From: Symbiodinium sp. CCMP2592
Lineage: Eukaryota; Sar; Dinophyceae; Suessiales; Symbiodiniaceae
NCBI GenBank assembly: GCA_905221615.1
Contig: CAJNDT010004624.1
Span: 496,001 to 560,000, forward strand
DNA: 64,000 nucleotides
Direction: 5' to 3'
Shown: piece by piece, positions 1,284 to 60,540 of the stretch
Position numbering within the stretch: position 1 is the first letter of the stretch
How the letters are laid out: the number at the start of each line of letters is the position of its first letter
Notes under the pieces: generated by a model
What the model was told of the DNA's origin: nothing
The model's input: the letters and a program-made list of their open reading frames with translations, nothing else
Databases searched by the model: none
Program-made: the position numbers and the translations under genes

Positions 1284-4200
1284 GCAGCTGCCGGAGCCTT
1301 ATCCGAAGTCACATTTGGAAGCTTCTTTCAAGTCTAGGTTTAGACAGGTGTGGATTCTAGACAATGGCTTTTCGTCCTGTTATCGACTCTTCGCTTCAAG
1401 ACCGCGGTAGTAGGCTTTCTGACCTTTAAGTCCAATTTCATTGCTCGAAGAATGCTTTGTACCCTTAGTTCTGTGAGCCTTTCACCCATGGCCGAGATAC
1501 GGCTGCGGACAGAACGCGTCTTCCCTGCATGATTGAGCTGTTTCCCACCAGGCCTTGGTAGCCTTCGCAGGGACAGGGAACTGCAAACTGCCGACGTCTT
1601 TTTGCGATCGAATGCAAGACTTTCCCAAGAGCTGCAAGGCAGCGACAGCTCAGCAGTGCTGTGTCTGGCTGCGTGACCACCACGGAGCTTCCTTTCAGCC
1701 TGGGCTCTCAGGATGTGTCGGGAGTGTGCCATGGCTTTCGTAAACTCACAAATGAGTGTGTTTAGTTTTCGGCCTGCCAGACTGACTGGCTTGAGAACTT
1801 GCTCCCAATAGCCTTGTAACCGCAACCTTCGAAATGGCCCCAAAGCTCAGCCGACACGAAGCCATGCTTGCCCGGTGCGCGCGTGCAAGTCGAAACAGCA
1901 GCGTGAGGCCACGAAAACGGCCTGCCGGTCGATATCTTCTGCCACCCCAGTCTGAACGTTTCAGTGGTGCTGACCAAGGAGAACAGGTGCATGCCCCGGG
2001 CGGGTTCCCTCTTTTTCTAGATTGAGGGGCCCCTGTGTTTCTCTTCAGGCCTCCAGTTGGGATCTCTGTGATTTCCAGTCCGGTCGGGGCTTGCGGGTTG
2101 CCTTTTAGGCTCCTTGTGGTGCATGGGTCAATCTTACTGCCCTGTCAGGTTCTTCATCTGCGGCGAAGCCGGCAGTCTTTTTCACACAGCCGGGCTGATT
2201 GAGCATTTCCTGCCATACGACAGGCTTGGCACGGGTTGCAGGTTGCCGAGAGTGCGCAATGTGTCTTGCTGCACTGGTAAGCGCAGTATAGACGCAGGCA
2301 GACACACGAACTGTTGCGCAGCCCATGTCGATGGTGCCGCGTGGAGGGATGCGATCATGATCGAGAACCGCATCGTGTGCATGAAGCACAGCACTAGCCA
2401 GGCCGCTTTGGATTTTGCGGGTCACTTGCACCGTTGAGCGAGACATGTTCTTCGACGGTTTGGAAGACTCGCTTTGCCTATTGAAGGTGTACATACCGGG
2501 GTTCAACGATCCCAAGGCGCGGTGCCTGCGTGACAGAGTAGACTCGGGGAACTCCCGGGAGTCGTGGACTTTGGACTTCTGGAGGGCTCTGGTTTGGAGC
2601 TCAAGGCCAATGTAGAAACTTGGGTAAGTCCGCAAAGCCCTTTGCCTATGCTTCTCCGCTTGTAGTGATCCAGCATAATACAAACCTATCTGTTTTTTAA
2701 GCACGACAGGGAGAATTCGGGAACATGCTCAATCAACAGAGTTGATCGGAATGCCGCAAATGCGAGCTGAATTTCCGTGTCGGCACGCGGAGGTCGGCAC
2801 AGTTGAGCTGGTTGCAGCGCAGGAGGCCGCCAAATTCTCGGACCGACTGTCTGTGAATATCGACCCATGGTTTCGCGGCGGGTCTTCAAGGGGCCGTGGT
2901 TTTGAGGTCTCAGGGACCCCGTGCGTCCCCAGCCGGCACCACGACAAGCACTGCCAGATACTGCCAAAGAGAGGAGCCACGCCCATAATGGTAACAACGA
3001 AAATCAGCAAAGTGCACTTCTAAAAATGGCAGAGATATCCAGATCAGACGTCGAGTACTACTAGTGCTAGCGAAATCCAGTGCAGAGGAGTGCAAACAGG
3101 CATGAAGTCAGAAACCAGTGAAGCTGTCCGCCCTCCTCGGGCCCACACCCGACAGGCCGAGGAGCCCGAACCCGATGGAGCAAGAGCCCCAGCTTCCCAG
3201 CCCGCTGCGCTCTTCGTCGGTTCAGGATGTGCCGGGCGAAGGTTGGGGCCAGGACGACGAGACTGAAAGCCTAGGGCCCCTAGGCCCTACGCCTGCCAGA
3301 GCTCCCCGCACAGACGGATGCACACAAAGATACACGTAGCTTCCACAGCTTCCGTGTGTCCTGTAGGGATCTTGCCATGCAGAGCAGCCAAGGGAGGACT
3401 CGGGTTGTCATCGTGTGCTGTGGCAGTAGCTGGAGCTTTCCAAGACTGTGTCAAGACGTCTTTGCGTCGCACTCTCCGCCTGGAGAAAAGGCAGCACTTC
3501 AAATCTCAGCTATGTATCGCGGCCATGCTTGCAAGCGCCACATTGTACTTCACCACAACGGTCACACAAAACCTGCTCCCAGAAAGCTGCGATTGTCCCA
3601 TTCCGTCGAACCGAGGCTTATGCTTGTCGGCTGCTGGAACGGCATTTAGCCGTGGACAGCCTGCGGCGCTTGACTCATCAAGCACTGGAGGCGGCCTCCA
3701 GCAAGAGTGCGGCAATAGCGCGGCAGTAGATACTATATAGTCTGACGAGTAGACTCTCAATACCGGCAATGATAGTGATAATCGCAGCTGCGTAACAAAC
3801 TGTTACTCATGAAGCCGGCTACAGCAGCAGACCGTCAGAAGCACCTTGCGTAACAGGAGGTAGTGAGCTTATGGAACACTTCCGGGGGCTTCCAATGTGG
3901 TCAAGCAAGGTAATCTGCAATCTGCCCACTGGACAGACGGTCCACAGCGCAACTGTGAAGAGCCGCCGCACCTCCCCGCCGACTTTGATCTTTGACTTCT
4001 ATACACTTCCCCCATTCGGACTTCAGTTGTTCAATATCACTCGCTTCGTGCGGCCTTTGCCGGGAGTCGAGATTCTCCTGGCCGAAGGAATCTCCAAACA
4101 AGATGTGCTGTAAAATAGATGTAGAGCGAAGCGACAGCTTTGACAACGAAGAAATTGGTAAGTTGCAGAAGCCTCGGATCGACCCGGCTTCAACCCAACT

Positions 4201-4970
4201 CATGATGGTTCCAGGGGGGCTCTTTGACACCACAAGATGTGATCAAGGAGTACGCCGGCCGGGGTCCCAGAATTCGCAGAGAAGGATTCGAAAAAGCTTC
4301 ATGCCTGCCACGTAGCCCGGAGTCAGCGCCAGAAAAGTTTGAATACTTCGGACTTGGTTTTGGTCTAGGCTTCGATTTCTCTTTCTTTACAGGCAGCCCT
4401 CGTCAGTCGTGTGCCTAAACTATCTCAAACTCCTTGTTTCACAACATGTCTTGTCAGACTTGTGCGCAGGTGGGTCTGCGGGGCCCAGCCCCGGGGTGGT
4501 AGACGCAGCCAAGGCTTGTCAAAACTCTGGCTTTTGGGCTTGGAGCTTGAGGGAAGAACCAGCCCTTTCGAGACAAGAAGGGTTGAGGGCTTAGGGGTTT
4601 GCATTCGGGTTGTGCTGGCTTCGTTCTCGGAGGTTTGATGCTGGTATGTGAGGCTCGACCGCGCTGGTTTTTGTTTTGTCTCTGTAAATGCATGTTGGCT
4701 TCGTTGCTCTCAGTTTTGTGACTCGACCAACACTGTCAGTTTCAATGGCTCAGACCAAAATTCTCAACGCAAAAAGCGTGAGCCCTGCAGCATCATGAAC
4801 AGAGCTTTCCTTAGGTTCCTTCACGACACCTCTCTGAAGATGTGTCCTAATGTGGAGCTCGAGAGACTGCGTCTCGAGGTTCCGGATATTCATATTGTTG
4901 CCAAAAGTGGCCCAACTCGGATGTTGGAAGCTGACATCTCGGGGCCTTGAGGTTTTGGGGGCCCATGTGG
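1284..4970. other. No gene recognised
   Basis: Open frames up to 199 codons exist on both strands (for example 2105-2704 reverse and 3318-3740 forward), but none shows a known motif, consistent codon bias or plausible splice partners. Composition is mixed and mostly non-repetitive. Small diverged exons of the RCC1-like gene could be hidden here. Confidence 0.5.
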
Positions 4971-5881: not shown

Positions 5882-7329
5882 CGTAGATCGTTACATTCGA
5901 GAGACGAGCTGAGCAGCTAAGGAAGCTGAGATCGAGGGTGCAGCGACGAGCTTTGCCGCTTGGTTGCAGTGCCGAAGGCCTCGGAAGGCTTCATGTCGGC
6001 GATTATGACACTAGCGACGACAACGACAATCGTGACGTTGAGATATAAATGATAGGCATGATCGTCAACATGATGGTGATGATGGGGATGATGATGACGA
6101 GGCGGAGGAGGAGGATCATAATTGTCGTCAAAATCCGCAATTGCCCGGTGTCAGATGGCATCCCACGGACCTCAAGTTTCCAGCCGTTCAAGGCTGACTG
6201 CTCTTGGGGTTCGCTCGTATGAGACTCTTGTACCGGGCTGCTGAGGTTGAAGGCAGAGAGAGTATTCGTCCCAATCCGAAATGGGCCAAGCCCCTGAAAG
6301 CTGAGGTCATTACCGACTATGGCCGGGTTGCCCAGGAGACCAGGCTGTGAGGTGCCGAGGCGAGTTCTCTGGTTCAGGCCGTCGAAATCGGAAGTTTCTC
6401 CGTCTTATCCTGGGGCAGCGAAGGGTCATTTTGAAAGAAACAGGTTCCTGCATGCTGGTAAATCCACAAGTCTACACCCCAGGGTGCCAAGCACGAATCC
6501 GTTCTCTCCGATCAGCCACATTGTGTTTCTTGTCGATCTCTAGATCTTGAAAGCACGTGCGAGGCTCGGAGCTGTTTTTCTTGATCACGCAGAATGCCAA
6601 GATTGGTTCGCTCATTCAGGAGCCCGCTTGCACTTCGTAGTGCTGGGGCTTCGTTGCTTGAATTCGGGGTTCCAGGGCAGAGGTTCAGCAGTTTATTTAC
6701 TGGCCTGAAGTGACGCAGGGATTAGATGTCAGACCTTTCGCGATTTCAGCATACCTAAGGGCGTCTCATTGGGGTCCACTGGACGCCATGGATTCGTTGC
6801 AGGCAACCCTAGCATGACACCAGTCCAAGACGAGGCCCGAATGCATCCCTAAACATCGACAAACAAATCACTCGCAGCGCTAAACTCGTCCCGATATTTC
6901 TGCTCAACCCCCTCATGTGGGAAGATAACCCAGGCCGTCATCGAGTTTTGAAACCCACGATTCGGTCTCAGCCACGTAGAAAAAAGAGCACGTGAGCTTG
7001 AGCTTTCGAGTGTCGCGAAGGCCACAGCCTCTGCGCCGAACTCCGGCGACACGGCAGACTTAGGAGGCACATCGAGAGACCGCTCACACGGATTTCTGCT
7101 GCTTTCTCGGATGCGCTTGCTTTAGGACGGAAGAGCTCTTTGCCGAAATGAGGTAAGGTTTGCCGGCACCGTCGTTTGTAGTTTGGGACTGTTGTGTGAG
7201 GCAGTATAACTTGCGACTGATCCCGAAAGTCTGAGCTTGGACCCAGCGACCTGATTTTAGCAGGTCTGGCCAGAGGTGAGCGCACCTATGACGTCCAGGT
7301 GCCTAGAATCCCAAAATCGCACTTCACTA

Positions 7330-7368
7330 CATAATACTATAGCTATAAGAAGGAGCCCCTAAAATTTG
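7330..7368 (-). repeat. Dispersed ~40-bp motif, copy 3
   Basis: On the reverse strand the block reads AAATTTTAGGGGCTCCTT, then CTTATAGCTATAGTATTATG. It matches the core of the copy at 1148-1188, including the trailing TAT-rich part. Confidence 0.5.
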
Positions 7369-8173
7369 TTTAGGCCCCCTACATTGCAGTAAGATGGGAG
7401 GAGCTTGTGCTCCCGGAGCCCACACCCTCGTGCGGCGAAGATCTTAGTGAAAATTTTGTTTTTAATGTCAAACACGCCCTACAAAGTAGGGATTGCGGTA
7501 ATAGATACACCTGTTCGCAGACCTGATTGTGAACATTTGGGCGCGGTTCAGGACAAGCCTTAGATAAGTCAAGGCAATTTAGGTGTAAATAATAGCTACG
7601 GTAAATATAGAGTTCAGGTTCCATATATGAGGTACTTGTCGCGAGACGGAGACAGAGATCAACACCCGATGCCAGTTAGAACAGCTCACGAAGAACCTGC
7701 AAGAAGTCGTTTTGACGAAGTGATTGGCCAGTTCCGCGAGCAGAGGCCCGTTCGCAAGATCTCGTACAGGGCTCCGCAAGCAGCTCGTCCCTTTCGCCGT
7801 CTTCTGTTTGGGAATGCATGGGGTGAGGCTGGATCAAGCATGGCCCACAGTGAGGAGGTCAGCGCGGAAGCGAAGTGGAAGAACATGGATGAGCATGTCA
7901 GCCAGGGTTCGAATGAAGCAGCGACGACACAAAGAATGCATCGCTTTAAACTCATCCCCGTCAACTGGTAGGCAACCCCACGTACATGGCTCCAAGGTTA
8001 ACTCGTATCTTGTAGTCTCTGATGAGAGAATCAAGAGTTGAGCAGAGAGTTTGTGTTGATAGTGATTCCAGTGATTCCAGATGCCCAGCTCAATGCTGCA
8101 AGGCATAGCAGCAGGGGCAGCAGTCGAGTCCCTGCGGAACAAGGCTTTAATTCTATACAAACGTGCTCAATTC

Positions 8174-8290
8174 TCAATCTCTCTCTCTCGCTCTCCCTAT
8201 CCCTCAACAGACAGAGAGACACCCAGACAGAGAGACAGAGCCAGCGGTTGACACCTGGACAGAGAGACAGACAGACAACAGACAGTCGAG
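8174..8290. repeat. Pyrimidine tract followed by GACAGA repeats
   Basis: A (TC)n run at the left switches to imperfect AGAGAGACAGAC repeats at the right. It is an ordinary compound microsatellite. Confidence 0.8.
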
Positions 8291-11200
8291 TCAGAACCAA
8301 CTGCAGGTTAGGTCCGGTTCATTGTAGGCATTGTGCTGCGAGGTGATCTTCGGAGATCGGCGGGCAGAGCATTACAGAGCCGCTCCACTCAGAGCTCAGA
8401 GGGCTTCGGCTCGAGGGGTTATCCGGAAAGGTTTGTGCAGGGCTCGGGTCTGTGGTTGAAAGATCACGGATACCTTCCACTTCGGAGACCTTTTGAACTT
8501 GCTGATTCAAATCTTTCCCGAACTGCAATGGCAGAGTTGAAGTTGCGAATGGTGAGGGGGTGTGGTAGGTAGGGTTTGAAGCAGAGGATATGGAGCGAAT
8601 CTCCGGGGGGTGGTGGTGCACGTTGCCTGGACACAATTCATTGTTTGCAATCAGATTGTCACCGAAGCCGCTTTCAACTTTATCCCTGCAATGCGGGCAT
8701 CGTCCTTTCTAGGTAGAAGGCAATATAGCATTCAAAACCTGCGGTTATTTGCAGGGTCCTGGACACTCAATACATCTAAGTACTGAGTAAGATTTCTATT
8801 TCAACACCTTGTCTCTCTGAGGGCGGCGCAGAGAGGAAGAAACGGACAAATTCTATGGGCAAACTTTCAACTCTTCTTTGCTGCTTAGGGTTCAGGTTCT
8901 GGGCCCTTGCAAACCGACAAAGAGCTCCGGCTATGAATGCACCCGCTCTTCGAATTGGAGCTTCTCGACCGAAGAGCATTCCCCGGAGCTCAGGCAATCG
9001 CACGGTCTCTCATCGAAGTGGTGGCGCAGAAATCTTCGAAGCCCATCCTATTAGGCCCCGGGGCGTTTGATCAACAGGTGACATCAGAAGCGACGCTCAA
9101 TAGCAAGCGGTTTCTTGTCAAAGTTGTGATCTTGCATATGTAGAACTTTGGAAATTCCTGCCGTGACCGGTCTGTCCTTTGTTATCGGCATGGTAGTTTT
9201 TTGCTGTTTCCTCATAGCCTGACAGAAGTCATGTCAGGGTGCACGCAGTGTTGCCGATTAGTGCGCAAGATCACCTGCTGCCAATGTGCGTCGCGATCAT
9301 TGCATGGCTCCACGACCCCAGTTGATGCCGGCCAGGCATCCAACTCAAGGAGCACAACGTCCAAGTCTTTAGGCCTTGGTTCCGGTAATTTTCTGTAAGC
9401 TTGCTTGGGCAGTGTGGTTGTGGGCATGTGCGGTGAGCTGCCCCTTGCGTGAGCGGTCGCAGTCGGAACCCGGCTGCAGCCATGTGTCCGGATTGCAGGA
9501 GACCAATGCACATGCTATGCTGACCAGGGCGATTCTGCAGCAGCTCCGCGACAAGGTCGGTCCTGTCGTGGCGGTAGAGGAGGCGCGCACAGACTTTTGT
9601 GTTGCTGTTGATGGCTGATCGTGCCCGTTCAGGTGTTGCCTGGTGCTGAGAGAAAGCCCCATCCAGACCCTGACCCCTTGTAGTCCTTGTGCGAGGTGGA
9701 TGAGTTCGCGGATTTTGAGGGGCGGGGCTCGTGACCTCGCTTGATGAAAAAGCGCGTGAAATCCCTCTATTAAGTGCTTGTGCATGCTTGCGGCTGCTCG
9801 GCAGGTCAGGTTTGCACAGCCAGACGTTAGCAGAGTCCAGGGCCGTCATAGGCTGATCTTGTCCCCCGGCTCGGAGACTGCCAGAGCTGAACCCGCAACC
9901 AAGACCCATAGTGCCAACCATTGCATGCAGGAGAGCCAAAGCCTATGCCATGAACAGAAACCGTCGTCGTTCGTAATGTCTGTTATCGGAGAAGCAAACA
10001 GGTCGGCAAACCACTTTGTGTTGTGCCGTGCCATGTTTTTTTGCAGCACGCTCTTGTAGTATCAGTGATATCTGTTCGAGTGTCATGCTATGTCACCTTG
10101 TCCTGTGTACATCATGAGTCTTATGTTTTATCACATGTAGAGCATCGCGCTGCTGCCAGGCTAAGAAGTTCGACTCGCCTACCTTCTCTGTGCATGCCGT
10201 CGCCTTTTCTGCAGAGCCTGTACTGTCGGGTTTCGGCTGAACCGAAGTGTGGCAGACAGGTGTAGCAGACTGCAGATCTTGGACGCTGGAGCGTAGCAAG
10301 CTGCGCTGCAGGTGGGCTTGGATACCATCAAGGTCCGCTCTCAGTACTTGTGGAGGCAGGTCTGCTGAGCTCGGGATCCAGTCGAGTTCATCCCAGAGTG
10401 AAGACGGTAGCGAACTCCGTGTCTCATGCGTGGTTTTGAAGCCTTCAGGCTTCTGGAGAGCCCTTGCAAGGGCAACGTCACCCGGCACGAGGACCGGCAT
10501 TTGAGCTCGTGGTCGGGCATAGGGCATCCCACTCGACTCCTGTTCAGCAACATGTTCGATCTGGCGTGCACCAACATCCTGACCCTGCACGCTGTTGCCT
10601 TACAACCTTTCGTGCTGAACAGTCGCACCTGGGGCTTTGCGTGGATGGCTAGCGGAGTTTCGCACACGCAAGAGAGGATGAGTAGGCATGAGCGTGTCAG
10701 TGCACATGCTGATAAATTCAAGCAGCAGAACCAGGACCGTGACGCTGCAAGCATGATTTGCTGTCAGGGGTGCTGTCAACTGAACCTCGACATACCAAGC
10801 CGCAGGTAATCTTTGTCTTAGGCACGTCATGGAACTGCAGTTAGGGATGCTGGAGCATCGAAGTGTGTTGTTGTAAGGACAACTAACTCAGTTCACACCA
10901 AACCTCGCCTGATGCGTCGAGTGCGAGTGCTAAAAAGTGCCTCCCTGGGTTTCTTTGCCCAGCTGTGTCACCTGGGAGGATGGTCGCTACACAGTGCGGA
11001 TACACAAGTACTCCTATGAGGCAAGCCGACCTGGGAACTGCCGGTTTCGTGTTGAAGCATCGTATAGTACTTGTGCAGCTCTTGAAGTCCATGCATCTCG
11101 TCACGTGAAGGAAACTCAGGGCCTGTTTAGGCATCGGAAGTTCTCTGCAGCTTTGTCCTTCGCCAGGCGCTGCTTGCGTATGGCCAATATCTCCACGAGG

Positions 11201-19993: not shown

Positions 19994-20004
19994 TCCAGGG
20001 TGCC

Positions 20005-20014
20005 TTGGCTCAAG
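20005..20014 (+). other. TTGGCTCAAG, possible remnant of the dinoflagellate spliced leader
   Basis: The 10 bases TTGGCTCAAG equal the 3' end of the known trans-spliced leader of dinoflagellate mRNAs (which ends CCATTTTGGCTCAAG). It lies 39 bp before the transporter start and at the left edge of the duplicated unit. Copy 2 has CTGGCTCAAAAC at the matching place (46786-46797). The match is short, so chance cannot be excluded. Confidence 0.35.
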
Positions 20015-20053
20015 ACCTGGACATTTTGTCTTTTGGCGCCCCTGTCCACAGCC

Positions 20054-21784
20054 ATGTCTGTGCCGGCCACTACGGAGCAGGAGTTGGAGCACACGGATAT
20101 CACCAAAGCTGCCTCATCCCTCTCCCAGTGCACCACGCTGGCTGGCGATTCCAGCGCGGAAGAGCTGTGCCCGGAGATATCGGCCATCAAGCCCGATGTC
20201 GAGAATGCCTTGGAGCTGCAGCCTGAGTGCCATGAAATCAGCATTTGGACAAAAAAGTCCATGGGTATCGTAATCGGGGGCTTCCTTCTGGCGTTCCTGA
20301 CTGCGATTTTGGCGGCTGTTCCATACGGATTCTTCCTCGGCTACATGGGGCTGGATTCGTACGTAATCTCTTCGATTACGCAGCTGATGCAGCTTCCGCA
20401 CGTGTTGCTTCTTCCGTTCGGCTTTCTCACGGATTGTTGCCCGATTCGGGGCAAACACCGGAAGCCTTATTTCGTGGCATCATGGTGCCTTGCCGGTTCT
20501 GCTCTTCTTGCCATGGCTTTAAAGCCACTGCCTGCTCCCTTCTACTGCCAAAACGAGGATGGCAGCTACAACTTTATGGTCCCTCCATGTAACCCGAGCA
20601 TCCGCACCGAGAAGAACTGGTACGTTTTCTGGTTGTTCATCCTGACAGCAGGCATCCAGCTTGGCATCGCGGCCGGTGAGGGTCTCCTGCTTGAGTACTC
20701 GCAGCGTGAGCCGGTGGAACGCCGAGGGCACATCAAGGCGGAAATGATGATGGTGTCCACAGCGGGGGCCTTGACCGCCACTGTGGTCGTTGGCGTGCTC
20801 ATGAACAGCAAGCCCTACCTGGGGACGTTCGACTGGGGGTTCTCCTTCAGCGGTCTCATGGCCTTTTGCTTCGTTCTGGTTGTCTTCATGATCCCGCTCT
20901 CCGTCTGTTGCGTGCACGAGCTCCCGAAAGCCAGGCAGTGCGGGGACCGAACCTCCTGCCGCGCCCATGTAAAGTCTTCGTGGGAGCTCGTGCGGAAGAA
21001 CTCGTTCTCGAACCTCCTTTTCTTTGCGTTCTTGGCGCAGCTGCTTGTTTCAATAACAACCACCGCCGCGCCAATGGTGAAGAGCCGATGGGCTGAGGTC
21101 AAAGTCCTACAGCAACAAACGTTTGGCCTTGCTGGGCTGGCTGTCATGATGCTGGCGACCTGGATCTACAAGGTTTGCCTGCTCCAGTCCAGCTGGCGAA
21201 AGGCCATCTTCGTCTCAATCGTTGCCATCATTGTCTTCGATGCAATCCCGACATTCCTCACCATTTTCGGCGTCGTCCGCAACCCGTATTTCTACCTCGG
21301 TGAAGACGTCCTAGGCAGTATCCCCAAAGCCGCACTCCAGTTAGTGTCCAATTTGATGATCATCGAACTTGCTGAGCCGGGTCGAGAAGGGCTGTGCTTT
21401 GGCCTCATCAATACGTTCCAGAGCTCGAGTACACCCTTTGGGGCAGTTGTGAGCAATCAAGTCTTCGGACTTTTCAGCCCGAACCTATCCATGCTTGAGA
21501 ACTACGTTGCAGACACTAGCACCTTCCGCTCTACAGTTGCCTGGTCCTATGTGCTCAGCTATGGCAGCTCCCTGATTGCTTTGTTTTTGCTGCCCATGAT
21601 CCCCTGGCAGAAGAAGGATGCTCAGAGGCGAAAGAAAGAATCAGGCTCCAGCTCTGTCAAGGCCACATTGGTCACTGTGATCCCGGCCTTGTGCCTCATG
21701 TACGGAATCATGGTTCTGCTTCTGACCAGCCAAGAAGAGACGGCTTGCCTCAAGTGGATCGGTGGCCATGGCTGCGAAAACTAA
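20054..21784 (+). CDS. BT1/folate-biopterin-type MFS transporter, copy 1
   Basis: The intronless 576-residue frame starts at an ATG at 20054 (MSVPATTEQELEHTD); the frame stays open upstream but only with non-ATG codons, and copy 2 has ATG at the matching place. A ~65-residue polar N-terminus precedes about 12 hydrophobic segments, the first being MGIVIGGFLLAFLTAILAAV. The loop GFLTDCCPIRGKHRKPYF matches the conserved signature between helices 2 and 3 of BT1 transporters (G-F-x-x-D-x-x-P-x-x-G-x-x-R-x-P-Y). A second typical stretch is GLCFGLINTFQSSSTPFGAV. BT1 proteins move folates or pterins across membranes, but in protists the family is broad and the substrate here is unknown. Lack of introns beside an 18-intron neighbour suggests origin through an mRNA copy. 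It differs from copy 2 mainly in the N-terminus. Confidence 0.85.
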   Translation: MSVPATTEQELEHTDITKAASSLSQCTTLAGDSSAEELCPEISAIKPDVENALELQPECHEISIWTKKSMGIVIGGFLLAFLTAILAAVPYGFFLGYMGLDSYVISSITQLMQLPHVLLLPFGFLTDCCPIRGKHRKPYFVASWCLAGSALLAMALKPLPAPFYCQNEDGSYNFMVPPCNPSIRTEKNWYVFWLFILTAGIQLGIAAGEGLLLEYSQREPVERRGHIKAEMMMVSTAGALTATVVVGVLMNSKPYLGTFDWGFSFSGLMAFCFVLVVFMIPLSVCCVHELPKARQCGDRTSCRAHVKSSWELVRKNSFSNLLFFAFLAQLLVSITTTAAPMVKSRWAEVKVLQQQTFGLAGLAVMMLATWIYKVCLLQSSWRKAIFVSIVAIIVFDAIPTFLTIFGVVRNPYFYLGEDVLGSIPKAALQLVSNLMIIELAEPGREGLCFGLINTFQSSSTPFGAVVSNQVFGLFSPNLSMLENYVADTSTFRSTVAWSYVLSYGSSLIALFLLPMIPWQKKDAQRRKKESGSSSVKATLVTVIPALCLMYGIMVLLLTSQEETACLKWIGGHGCEN

Positions 21785-46773: not shown

Positions 46774-46835
46774 TGCAAGGGTGCCCTGGCTCAAAACCTT
46801 GAGAGTTTGGTTTTTGGCAGCCCATGTCCGCAGCC

Positions 46836-48584
46836 ATGTCTGTACCGGCCGCTGCGGAACAGGAGTCGGAGAACACAAATATCAGCAAACCCGGCTCATA
46901 CCTCTCCCAGTGCACCACGCTGGCTGGGGATTCCTGCGCGGAAGAGCTTAGTCCTGGCCGTCGCCGGCGCCGGGAGATATCGGCCATCAAACCCGATGTC
47001 GAGAATGCCCTAGAGGTGCAGCCTGAGTGCCATGCAGTCAGCATTTGGACCTGTAAGTCCATGGGTATCGTGGTGGGGGGCTTCCTTCTAGCGTTCCTGA
47101 CTGCAATTTGTTCGGCTGTCCCATATGGATTCTTCCTTGGCTACATGGGGCTGGATTCATACGTAATATCTTCCATTACGCAGCTGATGCAGCTTCCACA
47201 CGTGTTGCTTCTTCCGTTCGGCTTTCTCACGGATTGTTGCCCGATTCGGGGCAAGCACCGGAAGCCTTATTTCGTGGCATCATGGTGCCTTGCCGGTTCT
47301 GCTCTTCTTGCCATGGCTTTAAAGCCACTGCCTGCTCCCTTCTACTGCCAGAACGAGGATGGCAGCTACAACTTTATGGTCCCTCCATGTAACCCGAGCA
47401 TCCGCACCGAGAAGAACTGGTACGTGTTCTGGTTATTCATCCTGACAGCAGGCATCCAGCTTGGCATCGCGGCCGGTGAGGGTCTCCTGCTTGAGTACTC
47501 GCAGCGTGAGCCGGTTGAACGCCGAGGGCACATCAAGGCGGAAATGACTATGGTGTCCACAGCCGGGGCCTTGGCCGCCACTGTGGTCGTTGGCGTGCTC
47601 ATGAACAGCAAGCCCTACCTGGGGACGTTTGATTGGGGGTTCTCCTTCAGCGGTCTCATGGCCTTTTGCTTCGTTCTGGTTGTCTTCATGATCCCGCTCT
47701 CTGTTTGTTGTGTGTACGAGCTCCCGAAACCCAGGCAATGCGCGGACCAAACCTCCTGCCATGCCCATGTAAAGTCTTCGTGGGAGCTGGTCCAGAAGAA
47801 CTCGTTCTCGAACCTCCTTTTCTTTGCATTCTTGGTGCAGCTGCTTTTTTCAATAACAACCACCGCCGGGCCAATGGTGAGGAGCCGATGGGCCGAGGTC
47901 AAAGTCCTGCAGCAACAAACGTTTGGCCTTGCAGGGCTGGTTGTCATGATGCTGGCGACCTGGATCTACAAGGTTTGCCTGCTCCAGTCCAGCTGGCGAA
48001 AGGCCGTCTTCGTCTCAGTCGTTGCCATCATTGTCTTCGATGCAATCCCGACATTCCTCACCATTTTCGGCGTCGTCCGCAACCCGTATTTCTACCTCGG
48101 TGAAGACGTCCTTGGCAGTATCCCCAAAGCCGCACTCCAGTTGGTGTCCAATTTGATGATCATCGAACTTGCTGAGCCGGGTCGGGAGGGGCTGTGCTTC
48201 GGCCTCATCAATACGTTCCAGAGCTCGAGTACACCCTTTGGGGCAGTTGTGAGCAATCAAATCTTCGGACTTTTCAGCCCGAACCTATCCATGCTTGAGA
48301 ACTACGTTGCAGACACTAGCACCTTCCGCTCTACAGTTGCCTGGTCCTATGTGCTCAGCTATGGCAGCTCCCTGATTGCTTTGTTTTTGCTGCCCATGAT
48401 CCCCTGGCAGAAGAAGGATGCTCAGAGGCGAAAGAAAGAATCAGGCTCCAGCTCTGTCAAGGCCACATTGGTCATTGTGATCCCGGCCTTGTGCCTCATG
48501 TACGGAATCATGGTTCTGCTTCTGACCAGCCAAGAAGAGACGGCTTGCCTCAAGTGGATCGGTGGCCATGGCTGCGGAAACTAG
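46836..48584 (+). CDS. BT1/folate-biopterin-type MFS transporter, copy 2
   Basis: This intronless frame of 582 residues counts from the ATG at 46836, the position shared with copy 1; an in-frame ATG at 46824 would add four residues (MSAA). It carries the same signatures as copy 1: GFLTDCCPIRGKHRKPYF, about 12 membrane segments, and GLCFGLINTFQSSSTPFGAV. Most changes from copy 1 lie in the cytosolic N-terminus and are otherwise scattered. An 18-bp insertion adds GRRRRR-type residues (five consecutive Arg codons) before EISAIKPD, which could add a basic trafficking or binding signal. The retained open frame with mostly conservative changes argues that both copies are functional. Substrate unknown. 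Confidence 0.85.
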   Translation: MSVPAAAEQESENTNISKPGSYLSQCTTLAGDSCAEELSPGRRRRREISAIKPDVENALEVQPECHAVSIWTCKSMGIVVGGFLLAFLTAICSAVPYGFFLGYMGLDSYVISSITQLMQLPHVLLLPFGFLTDCCPIRGKHRKPYFVASWCLAGSALLAMALKPLPAPFYCQNEDGSYNFMVPPCNPSIRTEKNWYVFWLFILTAGIQLGIAAGEGLLLEYSQREPVERRGHIKAEMTMVSTAGALAATVVVGVLMNSKPYLGTFDWGFSFSGLMAFCFVLVVFMIPLSVCCVYELPKPRQCADQTSCHAHVKSSWELVQKNSFSNLLFFAFLVQLLFSITTTAGPMVRSRWAEVKVLQQQTFGLAGLVVMMLATWIYKVCLLQSSWRKAVFVSVVAIIVFDAIPTFLTIFGVVRNPYFYLGEDVLGSIPKAALQLVSNLMIIELAEPGREGLCFGLINTFQSSSTPFGAVVSNQIFGLFSPNLSMLENYVADTSTFRSTVAWSYVLSYGSSLIALFLLPMIPWQKKDAQRRKKESGSSSVKATLVIVIPALCLMYGIMVLLLTSQEETACLKWIGGHGCGN

Positions 48585-55865: not shown

Positions 55866-57434
55866 TTGACGGGGGGTTGTTGTTCTGGTGTTGTTCCCCG
55901 GTGTTTGTCTCTGCACTGGTAGAAGAAACATAGTCGCACTCGGGGTGCTATATCCAGTGCTCAAAGACGCCTGCCCACCACCGCCTACCCACCACCGACC
56001 ACCAACAACAACCACAACAGTCACAACGACCACAGCAGCCACAGCTGCAACCACACCACCATACAGCTGGCCTTTTTGTCGGAAGATGCCTTTAGCCGCG
56101 TCCGTCTGACTGAGAGACATTCCTCGAGCCTAGGTTGATCGCACAACGCCGAGATCTAAATCTGACAGCGTTCCCTTGAGCCACGGTGGCAATTCTCAAT
56201 CACTTATCAAACATGTCCTCAGCTTTCGCAAGAGCTTTGTCAGTAAGAAGTCTGGGATGTTTTGCATAGCATCTGGTAGCTGAGGACACAGTACCTTTGC
56301 ATGATTGTTCTATTTTAAACTTGCAGATGTTTCACCAAGGGTCGTGCCATTACCATCCTCCACACACTTCTGCAGAAGCTGGAAATCTTTCTTCGTTTTC
56401 ATAGGGAACAGTCAGCCCTTAAGCTCCTTGAAAAGGCGACAAAGGGCCGTTTGACAAAATGCAGCAGGCCATCCGACCGCTACACATGCATTACTGTATG
56501 TCGGGGAGCTGCTGCCTTGCCGGCACTGGAAAGGCCGGATGCACGTGAGCCGCAGTGCACTGGTGAGAAGCGATAGGGGTGTCCGCCCACATGTGTTTTT
56601 CGTGAGAGACTCAGAGCAGATACCATTATCATGGCCGATGACGCTTCCAAGTCTCTTCAGGTGCTGGTTGCAAGCCGGGAATCCTCGCAATCCGTGCCGA
56701 ATACGGCTCAAGCACCAATCGGGCACCTCTCCGATACCTAAACCCCTCCACGAGAAGGTCGGAGTTCCTCCGGCCGTGATAGCGAACAATTCCAATGGCA
56801 AGCGCAAGCCGAGTCATTGGACTCTTCGACTGCATCTTTGTGCAGCACCGCTTCTTAGTGCCTTGGGCATCAACAGGAGACTGATCAGTGCATGGGTCAG
56901 AGAAATTACGAGGGCAAGACCCATAAGTACACGAGCAACAAGAAGAACAATGCTCATGGGAAGAACAGCGACAACCACGAAACGCAAGCAGCACGCAACA
57001 CGCAAACACGCAACAGACGGCAAACGATAAACCACAGCCAAAGGCCAACAACCACAACAAGAACAACAAGAACAACAACAAGGTAGCACGTGCGTTTGCC
57101 GCCGCGCAGGGTTCGTTTATTTTTGGTAGGTGTTTTGGTCATTTGCTGGAAGCCCTGAGTTTTGTGTGGTTTCGCCAACAAGATGATGTTTCAGATGTGT
57201 TGTCCATAGTTTTTTGTCTTGCTTTTTTGGTGTTATTTTTCCGAAATTATCGCAAATACCATGGTTTTCGTTTTTTATGTTTGATTTCTGAGGTTCGTTG
57301 AGAAGCTTTTATCTGGAAAGCCTCAAAACTCGATGTTTTTGCATGGTTGACGTTTCAAAAGTGAAGCAAGAAGAAGCGGCAACAAGGGCTTCACAGAGCA
57401 AGCGGCAGCGTTTGAGAAGTTACGCAACAAAAGA
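55866..57434. other. No gene recognised; AAC/CCA-rich patches
   Basis: It contains CCACCAACAACCACAACAG-type sequence (55975-56060) and an imperfect ACAAGAACAACA patch (56925-57080). Frames at 56539-57030 and 56412-56807 overlap on opposite strands and lack motifs. Confidence 0.4.
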
Positions 57435-57790
57435 AGCAGCAGACACAAGCCGCGTTCGCATGGACGTCATCACCACCCCCCTCCCCCATCCCCCCCACCC
57501 CCCGCACAGGGCTGAAAGCCAAATGCAAGTCTAAGCTGGCATGTGCAAAAAGTCGAGAGTCAGCAAAAACACCGCAAAAACCGATGCGAAATGCGACACA
57601 CATAGGAAGCAACAAAACAAACAGAAGACACAAGCCGCATGCGCATGGACATCATCACCCATCCCCCCATCCCCACGTCCGCACAGAGCTGAAAGACAAA
57701 TGCAAGTCTAAGGTGGCATGTGCAAAATGTCGAGACTCGGCAAAAGCACCGTAAACCGACGCGAAATGCAACACACCTAGGAAAACACCG
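57435..57790. repeat. Two tandem ~177-bp repeats plus a degraded third
   Basis: Copies are anchored by GCACAGRGCTGAAAG at 57504 and 57681. Each contains GACACAAGCCGC, CATGGACRTCATCACC, a C-rich run, AAATGCAAGTCTAAG and GGCATGTGCAAAA in the same order. A poorer copy of the second half (GCAAGTTCAATTCCGG, GTGGGCAAAGTGCC) lies near 57903. The array abuts the large inverted-repeat element. Confidence 0.75.
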
Positions 57791-58019
57791 AAACAAAACC
57801 GTTGCGAAATGGAGAGCTTAGCATTTTTTTGTGCAGTGTAGCTCGCCTTCCGTTGCATTTTTGGCAACAAAACACCGCAAAAAAAAGATGCGAACACACA
57901 ACGCAAGTTCAATTCCGGGTGGGCAAAGTGCCAAAACTCTAGTTTCAGCACATGCCAGCAAAGAAATCGCACCACCCCGCGCGGCGGCAGACGCACGTGC
58001 TGCCAACAACAAGGTCACG

Positions 58020-58024
58020 ACAGC
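58020..58024. repeat. Probable target-site duplication, left
   Basis: ACAGC directly precedes the left terminus GTAACGGATCCCA. The same five bases follow the right terminus at 60198-60202 in direct orientation. Confidence 0.55.
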
Positions 58025-60197
58025 GTAACGGATCCCAGGGTTTTTGTGGTTTTAGACAGCGAAAACGCCGCTCCCACCGGCAAAGTTGGACTTGGCGGGG
58101 TGGGGGGGAGGGGGGGGTAATAGGGTAATGTTTTGAAAACGCGACTTTCGGTTTTTTCATTTTTTTCTTCAGAAATAGGGTTTCGCTTGGGTTTTGGACA
58201 CGCCTGCGTGCAATAAACTGTTTTGACAGCAGCGAAAATGGCTCTTGAAAAATGAGGATAATTTGGTGCTGTGCGCTTTTAGCACATTGGCAGCGTTCTA
58301 CATGACTAGCAAGATGCGTTTTCGCTTGGGTTTTTGCGCATCACAGGATTGCATGTACTTGTCTTATGGCCAAAAAGCGAACAACACGGAAACTGCAAAA
58401 CATGGGATCCGATCACTTTAGCAGCAACAAAACATGTACGGGCAACAACAGCATCCACAGCAGAGCAATGGTCTGATCTGGACGTGATCATGGTTGGCCC
58501 ATGGATGCTCTGCGGCAATGGATATGGTCTGATCTGGACGTGATCATGGTTGGCCCATGGATGCTTTGCGGCAATGGATATGGTCTGATCTGGACGTGAT
58601 CATGGTTGGCCCATGGATGCTCTGCGGCAATGGATATGGTCTGATCTGGGCACGATCATGGTTGGCCCATGGATGCTCTGCGGCAATGGATATGGTCTGA
58701 CCTGGACGTGATCATGGTTGGCCCATGGATGCTCTGCGGCAATGGGTATGGTCTGATCTGGTCGTGATCATGGTTGCCCCATGGATGCTCTGCGGCAATG
58801 GACATGGTCTGATCTGGGCATGATCTTGGTTGGCCCATGGACGCCCTGCGGCAATGGATATGGTCTGATCTGGACGTGATCATGGTTGGCCCATGGATGC
58901 TCTGCGGCAATGGATATGGTCTGGTCTGGACGTTAACATATGGTTGGCCCATGGATGCTGTGCGTGAACGGATATGGTCTGATCTGGACGTGATCATGGT
59001 TGGCCCATGGATGCTCTGCGGCAATGGATATGGTCTGATCTGGACGTTATCATTGTTGGCCCTTGGATGCTCTGCGGCAATGGATATGGTCTGATCTGGG
59101 CGTGATCTTGGTTGGCCCATGGACGCCCTGCGGCAATGGATATGGTCTGATCTGGACGTGATCATGGTTGGCCCACGGATGCTCTGCGGCAATGGATATG
59201 GTCTGATCTGGACGTGATCATGGTTGCCCCATGGATGCTCTGTGGCAATGGATATAGTCTGATCTGGGCGTGATCATGGTTGGCCCATGGATGCTGTGCG
59301 TGAACGGATATGGTCTGATCTGGACGTGATCATGGTTGGCCCATGGATGCTCTGCGGCAACGGATATGGTCTGATCTGGATGTGATCATGGTTGGCCCAT
59401 GGATGCTCTGCGGCAACGGATATGGTCTGATCTGGACGTTAACATGGTTGGCCCATGGATGCTCTGCGGCAATGGATATGGTCTCATCTGGACGTGATCA
59501 TGGTTGGCCCATGGATGCTCTGCGGCAATGGATATGGTCTGATCTGGACGTGATCATGGTTGGCCCATGGATGCTCTGCGGCAACGGATATGGTCTGATC
59601 TGGACGTGATCATGGTTGGCCCATGGATGCTCTGCGGCAATGGATATGGTCTGATGTGGACGTGATCATGGTTGGCCCATGAATGCTCTGCGGCAATGGA
59701 TATGGTCTGATCTGGACGTTAACATGGTTGGCCCATGGATGCTGTGCGTGAACGGATATGGTCTGATCTGGACGTGATCATGGTTGGCCCATGGATGCTC
59801 TGCGGCAATGGATATGGTCTCATCTGGACGTGATCATGGTTGGCCCATGGATGCTCTGCGGCAACGGATATGGTCTGATCTGGACGTGATCATGGTTGGC
59901 CCATGGATGCTCTGCGGCAATGGATATGGTCTGATCTGGACGTGATCATGGTTGGCCCATGGATGCTCTGCGGCAACGGATATGGTCTGATCTGGACGTG
60001 ATCATGGTTGGCCCATGGATGCTCTGCGGCAATGGATATGGTCTGATCTGGACATGGTTGGATGCAGCGGACAATCGCGTTTTCTAAAAACGGCCCTATA
60101 ACCCCCCCCCTCCCCCCCCACCGCTCCGAGGCCGACTTTGTCGGCAGGGCCAAGGTTTTCGTGGCCTGACAAGGCGAAAAAGCATGGGATCCGTTAC
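58025..60197. mobile_element. 2.17-kb terminal-inverted-repeat element filled with a minisatellite
   Basis: The ends 58025-58145 and 60075-60197 are inverted copies of about 121-123 bp. Three blocks are strongly conserved: the tip GTAACGGATCCCA; a CCG(G/A)CAAAGT(T/C)GG block; and a G-rich run (GGGGTGGGGGGGAGGGGGGG, TAATAGGG or TTATAGGG) ending in GAAAACGCG. ACAGC flanks both ends directly, as expected of a 5-bp target duplication. The interior holds about 300 bp of unique sequence on the left, then the 56-bp array. No transposase frame is present, so it would be non-autonomous. The family is not known to me. Confidence 0.75.
58462..60053. repeat. 56-bp minisatellite, about 28 copies
   Basis: The unit begins GGTCTGATCTGGACGTGATC and continues ATGGTTGGCCCATGGATGCT, CTGCGGCAATGGATAT. 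Variants include GACGTTAAC in place of GACGTGATC and GCTGTGCGTGAACGG in place of GCTCTGCGGCAATGG. The second variant recurs at 58958, 59293 and 59741, spaced about 6 and 8 units apart, so blocks of units appear to have been copied together. Fifty-six is not a multiple of three; long frames (for example 58656-59192 reverse) arise because the unit lacks stops in some frames. Confidence 0.95.
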
Positions 60198-60202
60198 ACA
60201 GC
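60198..60202. repeat. Probable target-site duplication, right
   Basis: ACAGC directly after the right terminus CCGTTAC; see 58020-58024. Confidence 0.55.
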
Positions 60203-60540
60203 CGCTACCAACAACAACAACCACAACCACCGCAACAACCGCAACAGTAGCAGCCACAGCCACAGCTACGGCGACAGCAACCTTAAAAGAACCACCAGCA
60301 GCAGCAGCATCAGCAGCAACAACATCACCAACACCACTAGCAACACCAACAAACCACCACTACCACCAACAACAACAACAACAACCACCACAACAACAGC
60401 AAGCAATAACAACAGCAACAGCAACCACAACCACAACGACAACAGCAACAACAGCCAACAACAACAGAAAACCAACAGAACCAACAGCAACAGGAGCAGG
60501 AGCAGCAGCTACGACAGATGCAACAGAAGTGTTTGACTCC
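60203..60540. repeat. CAA/CAG/CCA-rich low-complexity tract
   Basis: Imperfect CAACAACAACC, CAGCAGCAGC and ACCACCAC words run for about 330 bp. Three forward frames are open with Asn/Ser, Thr/Ala or Gln/Pro bias, as expected of a trinucleotide repeat with interruptions. No folded domain is suggested. Confidence 0.75.

Follow-up and report, generated by a model that had tools for sequence, protein, structure and literature searches.

A 56-bp minisatellite in Symbiodinium sp. CCMP2592 is dispersed through the genome together with the inverted-repeat ends of the element that contains it, and the same unit is common to several element families. The copy described here, an approximately 2.2-kb non-autonomous element of what we call family A, has inverted-repeat ends and occupies positions 58013-60209 of a 64,000-nucleotide stretch (the window; G000:C4623:496001-560000) of an assembly of 1.098 Gb in 5383 contigs. 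We consider it probable, with considerable confidence, that family A is a non-autonomous transposon with terminal inverted repeats (TIRs) that inserts at CAA sites with an 8-bp duplication, and that its minisatellite is a passenger exchanged among families. A sequence-only reading of the window had already proposed that the satellite is carried and spread by a DNA transposon-like unit; that idea is right in kind but was mistaken about where the element ends, about its target duplication and about block amplification in the array, and it was too narrow: several CAA-targeting families have the minisatellite in common, and some arrays lie in no recognised element.

The organisation of the element and of its neighbour, element C, is given in Table 1. 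The inverted arms (58025-58144 and 60075-60197) are imperfect, about 120 bp long and 74% identical over 123 bp. An array of about 28 copies had been described as lying exactly between inverted repeats of about 122 bp, and both array and arms are real, but the array is set off from the left arm by a 323-bp spacer and from the right arm by some 20 bp. Alignment of copies places the termini at 58013 (GGTCACGACAGC) and 60209 (GCCGCTACC), outward of the GTAACGG and CCGTTAC motifs that had been taken for the ends, and once the ends are corrected in this way AACAACAA is found on either side of element A. The pentamer ACAGC (58020-58024 and 60198-60202), formerly regarded as a 5-bp target duplication, can be rejected as such because it is internal to the element and is repeated from copy to copy: in family A, 11 of 14 left ends and 13 of 15 right ends have it.

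Table 1. Features of elements A and C in the window, and the ends of family B.
Feature	Position	Strand	Basis or remark
Left target-site copy of family C, AACAACAA	57074..57081	+	Junction alignment
Element C (family C), without 56-bp array	57082..58004	+	31-bp TIRs 57082-57112 / 57974-58004, 90% complementary
Left target-site copy, AACAACAA	58005..58012	+	Junction alignment of copies; also the right flank of element C
Left TIR, family A (GGTCACGACAGCGTAACGG...)	58013..58144	+	Recurs on other contigs
Left spacer	58145..58467	+	BLAST to L018-L024 and others; unique in the element, common to many A copies
56-bp minisatellite, 28.3 copies	58468..60053	+	TRF (92% matches, score 2769), unit split, nhmmer
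Right TIR, family A (...CCGTTACACAGCCGCTACC)	60075..60209	-	Comparison of copies
Right target-site copy, AACAACAA	60210..60217	+	Opens a CAA/CAG-rich tract
Family B ends, CGCGCGGACGCC ... GTGGTCCGAGCC			In CAA sites; unrelated to A ends

Searching the assembly with the left and right ends gave 22 and 24 matches, respectively, which together define 21 distinct places with family A ends, the window included, and so bear out the proposal of a dispersed carrier. The 56-bp unit was detected by nhmmer at 17 of these 21 places, at L014 merely as a 25-base trace, and is absent from L013, L015, L050 and L051. Thirteen copies match both end repeats (the window, L010-L014 and L018-L024), and units lie inside 12 of them, among which L011 has two partial units and L014 the trace just mentioned; the exception, L013, is about 200 bp long and has no units and an unrecognisable left terminus. 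The 11 copies whose ends could be placed range from 610 to 2197 bp. Among these 11, only L020 and L022 have flanks in common (95-96% identical over approximately 1.5 kb), and on that identity they are taken to be a segmental duplicate. The mutual flank matches of the other nine do not exceed 77% over at most 250 bp, plus a single 27-bp match at 96%, and resemble CAA-rich repeats or element C. Element C also accounts for the 81% match over 423 bp between L020 and the left flank of the window copy.

The array is the most labile part of the element. Left modules (TIR plus spacer) are 88.6-100% identical among the eight best copies, and the window copy and L018, which agree at 99.6% in the left module and 95.1% in the right, have arrays of 28.3 and 7.3 units, respectively; in L010 and L023, units occur on both strands of a single array. 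Because such a difference in size coexists with a left module that is 99.6% identical, and because strands are mixed, the array changes in length and strand more rapidly than other parts of the element. The earlier suggestion of block amplification, based on variants recurring 6 and 8 units apart, is true of where one variant (C43G G48T C49G T52C) falls, in units 9, 15 and 23, but not of the array in general: no lag of 13 units or fewer has an excess of unit similarity (p 0.57 at lag 6 and 0.26 at lag 8; maximum statistic over these lags, p 0.95; 2000 shuffles), and block amplification at lags 6 and 8 is rejected as unsupported.

The 56-bp unit is not confined to family A. When the best 40 of 388 first-look candidates were scored, a search with the unit gave 274 matches, of which one array may contribute several, and among the matches listed 12 contigs have family A ends and 26 do not. 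The sequence-only reading had held that finding the unit widely without the inverted ends would speak against carriage by an element, and taken literally this is what is seen, on at least 26 contigs, but 13 of 18 such arrays lie in other elements. These 18 arrays are on 17 of the 26 contigs (L053-L060 and L061-L070): 12 have family B sequence on at least one side, and that of L060 follows an end, ACAA and then GGTAACCGGC, which represents family D, known from one copy and its left end only. With 12 arrays in another family and one in a third, transport by elements is real and is not tied to one pair of ends. In the remaining five (L061-L065) no known type of end appears in the sequence inspected, which for L063 consists almost entirely of array. 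Seen from the side of family B, a unit match lies within 2.5 kb at 12 of 17 left ends among the matches listed, including those on C5125, C5259 and C3691.

Despite unrelated ends and spacers, A and B share their unit closely. One and the same consensus is found in four of 12 A arrays (the window, L018, L023 and L024) and in seven of seven B arrays; the remaining eight A arrays depart from it by one or two bases. Units differ on average by 0.082 when taken from a single element, by 0.087 when taken from different elements of one family and by 0.101 when taken from different families, and the A to B value of 0.094 is not above the A to A value of 0.110. As the consensus is shared and units differ no more between A and B than within A, the array has either moved between families or been homogenised across them. 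A second repeat of family B, of about 54 bp, resembles the 56-bp unit, but weakly: its alignment score of 35 is no higher than shuffled sequences can reach (mean 22.1, sd 4.6 and maximum 45 in 300 shuffles). An exact 33-base unit pattern was found nowhere in prokaryote and virus sequence collections, which is weak evidence. Other features of the arrays may be recorded here. Many units at L060, L062, L063 and L064, all outside A and B, are of a subtype with GGCACATGG in place of GGCCCATGG. At L049, two 56-bp arrays (3685-4284 and 7678-8251) separated by roughly 4 kb have a spacer-side flank in common, and no family A end accompanies the second; L016 contains a different minisatellite at 7004-8603 (66 bp, 24.4 copies).

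An 8-bp target duplication is supported by the flanks of 14 copies from families A, B and C that have both junctions, counted after merging duplicates. Paired 8-mers match at a mean of 7.57 of 8 positions, 10 of 14 pairs exactly, which exceeds the agreement between shuffled partners (p 0.00075). The set is without L010 and L011, in which the right terminus is altered or lost, the truncated L012 and L013, and all one-ended copies; L022 was merged with L020 as a duplicate, junction letters were transcribed by hand, and the left junction of L055 is ambiguous, its first bases being CAA rather than CGC. When duplication lengths from 4 to 10 were tried, only 8 combined high identity with an excess of own over foreign partners (0.946 versus 0.866), whereas at 5 the identity is high but there is no excess (0.886 versus 0.889). 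The commonest pair, AACAACAA/AACAACAA, which accounts for most of the set, says little about duplication, because a CAA microsatellite alone would give it. Informative are five of the 14, four of them with mismatches: L053 (TACAACAA/TACAACAA), L024 (TGCAACAA/TGCAACAG), L056 (CAAAACAA/CGAAACAA), and L014 and the C element in L020, each at 6 of 8. Since the right flank of C and the left flank of A in the window are the same eight bases, those two pairs are not independent. L052 is known from its right end alone, where the flank TACAACAA borders directly on non-repetitive DNA.

Families A, B and C and the single D end occupy their CAA sites in one polarity that is nearly fixed. ACAA ends 24 of 25 left junctions across these families (duplicates merged) and stands at positions 5-8 of 19 of 22 right flanks, TTG occurs in none of these junction 8-mers, and the left end of a B copy at L070 is preceded by AAGAA rather than ACAA. 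A further view of the flanks, indirect in that it relies on BLAST extension from a query including 24 flank bases, is in agreement: with the query's own copy counted for B and left out for C, the same-strand alignment runs 5 or more bases into the CAA flank at 16 of 17 B left ends (L070 among the 16) and at 36 of 39 for C, the latter drawn from the best 40 of 105 candidates. One-way insertion is notable for family C because its 31-bp ends are near-symmetric; a nearly fixed polarity is unusual for such ends, and we count it against the transposon explanation.

Elements of these families are also found next to one another. In the window element C abuts element A with only the 8 bp of AACAACAA between them, the order in L020 and L022 is A and then C, and L070 has right-end and left-end sequences of family B separated by 5 bp. 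Family C is represented genome-wide by 105 first-look candidates, 40 of which were scored. Such stacking, with microsatellite flanks in most copies, is also characteristic of SaTar-type elements. Within element C, TRF reports a 177-bp direct repeat in two copies at 57424-57783.

What we infer about the action of a transposase, the mode of transfer of arrays between families and the superfamily would run as follows. A transposase encoded elsewhere would recognise the two unlike ends of family A and insert the element at asymmetric NNCAACAA-like sites, mostly in CAA-rich microsatellites and almost always in one direction, an 8-bp stagger at the asymmetric CAACAA motif giving rise to the 8 duplicated bases. 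The 56-bp minisatellite would travel inside element A as a passenger, and the array could then grow, shrink and invert locally through unequal exchange or slippage. That at least two other families, B and D, combine different ends with the same type of site and the same unit implies transfer of the array from family to family, with recombination of elements stacked in the same CAA tracts as the probable means. Microsatellite expansion around insertions, as cited for maize TAFTA elements in the part available of PMC5907723, may in addition lengthen the CAA tracts. It is a tentative further idea, and one we hold at somewhat less than even chances, that CAA tracts serve as docking and recombination ground, so that families with unrelated ends, a CAACAA target used in one direction and a shared 56-bp cassette would make up a polar trinucleotide-targeting system.

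The driver of these elements is probably a transposase of the Merlin or Mutator type, with a Merlin-like enzyme slightly favoured. GG begins the ends of A and C, the single D left end and the right end of B, while the B left end begins with CG. The 8-bp duplication (14 pairs, 5 informative) agrees with the 8-9 bp of Merlin; together with a TIR of about 120 bp it also agrees with the 8-11 bp duplications and long TIRs of Mutator-like elements (MULEs), a combination that is not exclusive to them. PF12762 (DDE_Tnp_IS1595, Merlin) has 23 matches in the genome, all above cut-off and with no stops in the match. The best of these, at G000:C4623:11622-12053, is on the same contig outside the window, in a stop-free frame of 312 aa. 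For one PF12762 frame, inspection by eye of the next 500 bp on the 3' side showed no family-type end; no transposase is apparent in the copies examined, and an autonomous partner was not found.

A Mutator-like transposase would make the elements CAA counterparts of the plant SaTar, Micron, TAFTA and MuTAnT elements. Published accounts of MULE relatives, as far as their available parts go, describe microsatellite targets, TIRs of 40-250 bp and end-to-end stacking (PMC5907723, PMC4486113, PMC8449440), all of which recall the approximately 120-bp TIR and the 8 bp between C and A; but in those relatives the duplication is 9-10 bp long and the target is most often (TA)n, where we find 8 bp and CAA, and we regard this assignment as possible but on the unlikely side. 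The polarity, being nearly absolute, would also be accounted for if no transposase were involved and circular copies, their ends joined across CAA, entered CAA microsatellites by recombination, since polarity would then be fixed automatically; a route of this kind has been put forward as speculation for SaTars in the part of PMC5907723 available. However, L024 and L056 are in almost non-repetitive sites with near-matching flanks, TACAACAA at the right of L052 gives way to unique DNA, and flanks match their own partners better than those of other pairs, all of which makes insertion by recombination improbable.

A different kind of alternative concerns the array, which might primarily be a host repeat that spreads independently and was merely captured by A, B and D. 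The 388 first-look unit candidates (40 scored) stand against only 21 A places and 17 B left ends, and five of the 18 non-A arrays are outside recognised elements; yet 13 of those 18 and 17 of the 21 A places are in CAA-targeted elements, and because only about 600-750 bp was read upstream of four of the five unassigned arrays, truncated or unknown elements may be present there. We regard capture of a host repeat as possible but less likely than not. Descent of all copies from segmental duplication of a single CAA-rich locus would fit the 95-96% identical flanks of L020 and L022 but is largely refuted by the other nine of the 11 copies, which share no flanks beyond weak matches, and we hold it to be extremely improbable.

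The reading that we prefer, of a CAA-targeted transposon with an exchanged passenger array, has partial parallels elsewhere, drawn here from the available portions of the reports cited. Microsatellite-targeting transposons have been described in plants and moths, mainly in (TA)n (PMC5907723, PMC8449440, PMC4486113). Similar in habit are the SaTars of guayule and rice (PMC5907723), small non-autonomous TIR elements that lie in microsatellites, are stacked end to end and have ordinary target duplications outside microsatellites, but which are mostly in (TA)n, make 10-bp duplications and are MULE-related; no shared minisatellite is described in the portion available, and the word 'orientation' is absent from the text of that paper. 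MuTAnT of Medicago truncatula (PMC4486113) is likewise a DNA transposon of microsatellites but is mudrA-type, with (TA)n targets and 9-bp duplications. Among Symbiodinium Merlin families (PMC8101967), Sy.m_F1, Sy.k_F1 and Sy.k_F2 resemble the present elements in their 5'-GG ends, imperfect TIRs and internal tandem repeats, and Sy.m_F1 also in its 8-bp duplications; these families encode a transposase, whereas the copies here show none and have a strict target, in contrast to Sy.m_F1, for which that report gives no clear target consensus. The foldback element Tetris of Drosophila virilis (PMC4079207) is likewise non-autonomous and TIR-ended, has tandem repeats inside it, duplicates 8-10 bp and is linked to longer satellite-like arrays, but its tandem repeats are within the TIRs, as is the rule for foldback elements of this type, whereas in element A the array is between them. 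BrickBuilt of Porphyromonas gingivalis (PMC4596501), a miniature inverted-repeat element (MITE) with a 23 bp minisatellite inside, is bacterial and differs in its small inverted-repeat ends and unit length. Finally, Dada elements (PMC3706591) are DNA transposons with asymmetric, specific targets usable in one direction, but they make 6-7 bp duplications, lack TIRs and target RNA genes, the direction of the U6 families varying by species, unlike the 8 bp and TIRs found here. Among the literature entries listed, mostly titles and opening lines of abstracts and with few subscription journals, none dealt with CAA-targeted elements in dinoflagellates.

These elements provide a concrete and countable case of minisatellite dispersal in which the array rides transposons and passes between unrelated ones. 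The near-strict direction of insertion into CAA is a mechanistic clue, pointing either to asymmetric target recognition or to recombination, and CAA tracts would serve as safe landing sites.

Elsewhere in the window, no Rfam families were detected at gathering thresholds and no tRNA by ARAGORN. The dinoflagellate spliced-leader motif had no match in the window at three or fewer mismatches, nor did its exact 18-mer occur in 71 loci. At 503-915, TRF reports a 201-bp repeat of 2.1 copies with a GA-rich tract. Two long BT1-family transporter frames (20000-21784 and 46824-48584), about 25 kb apart, are very similar by eye, which suggests a tandem gene duplication.
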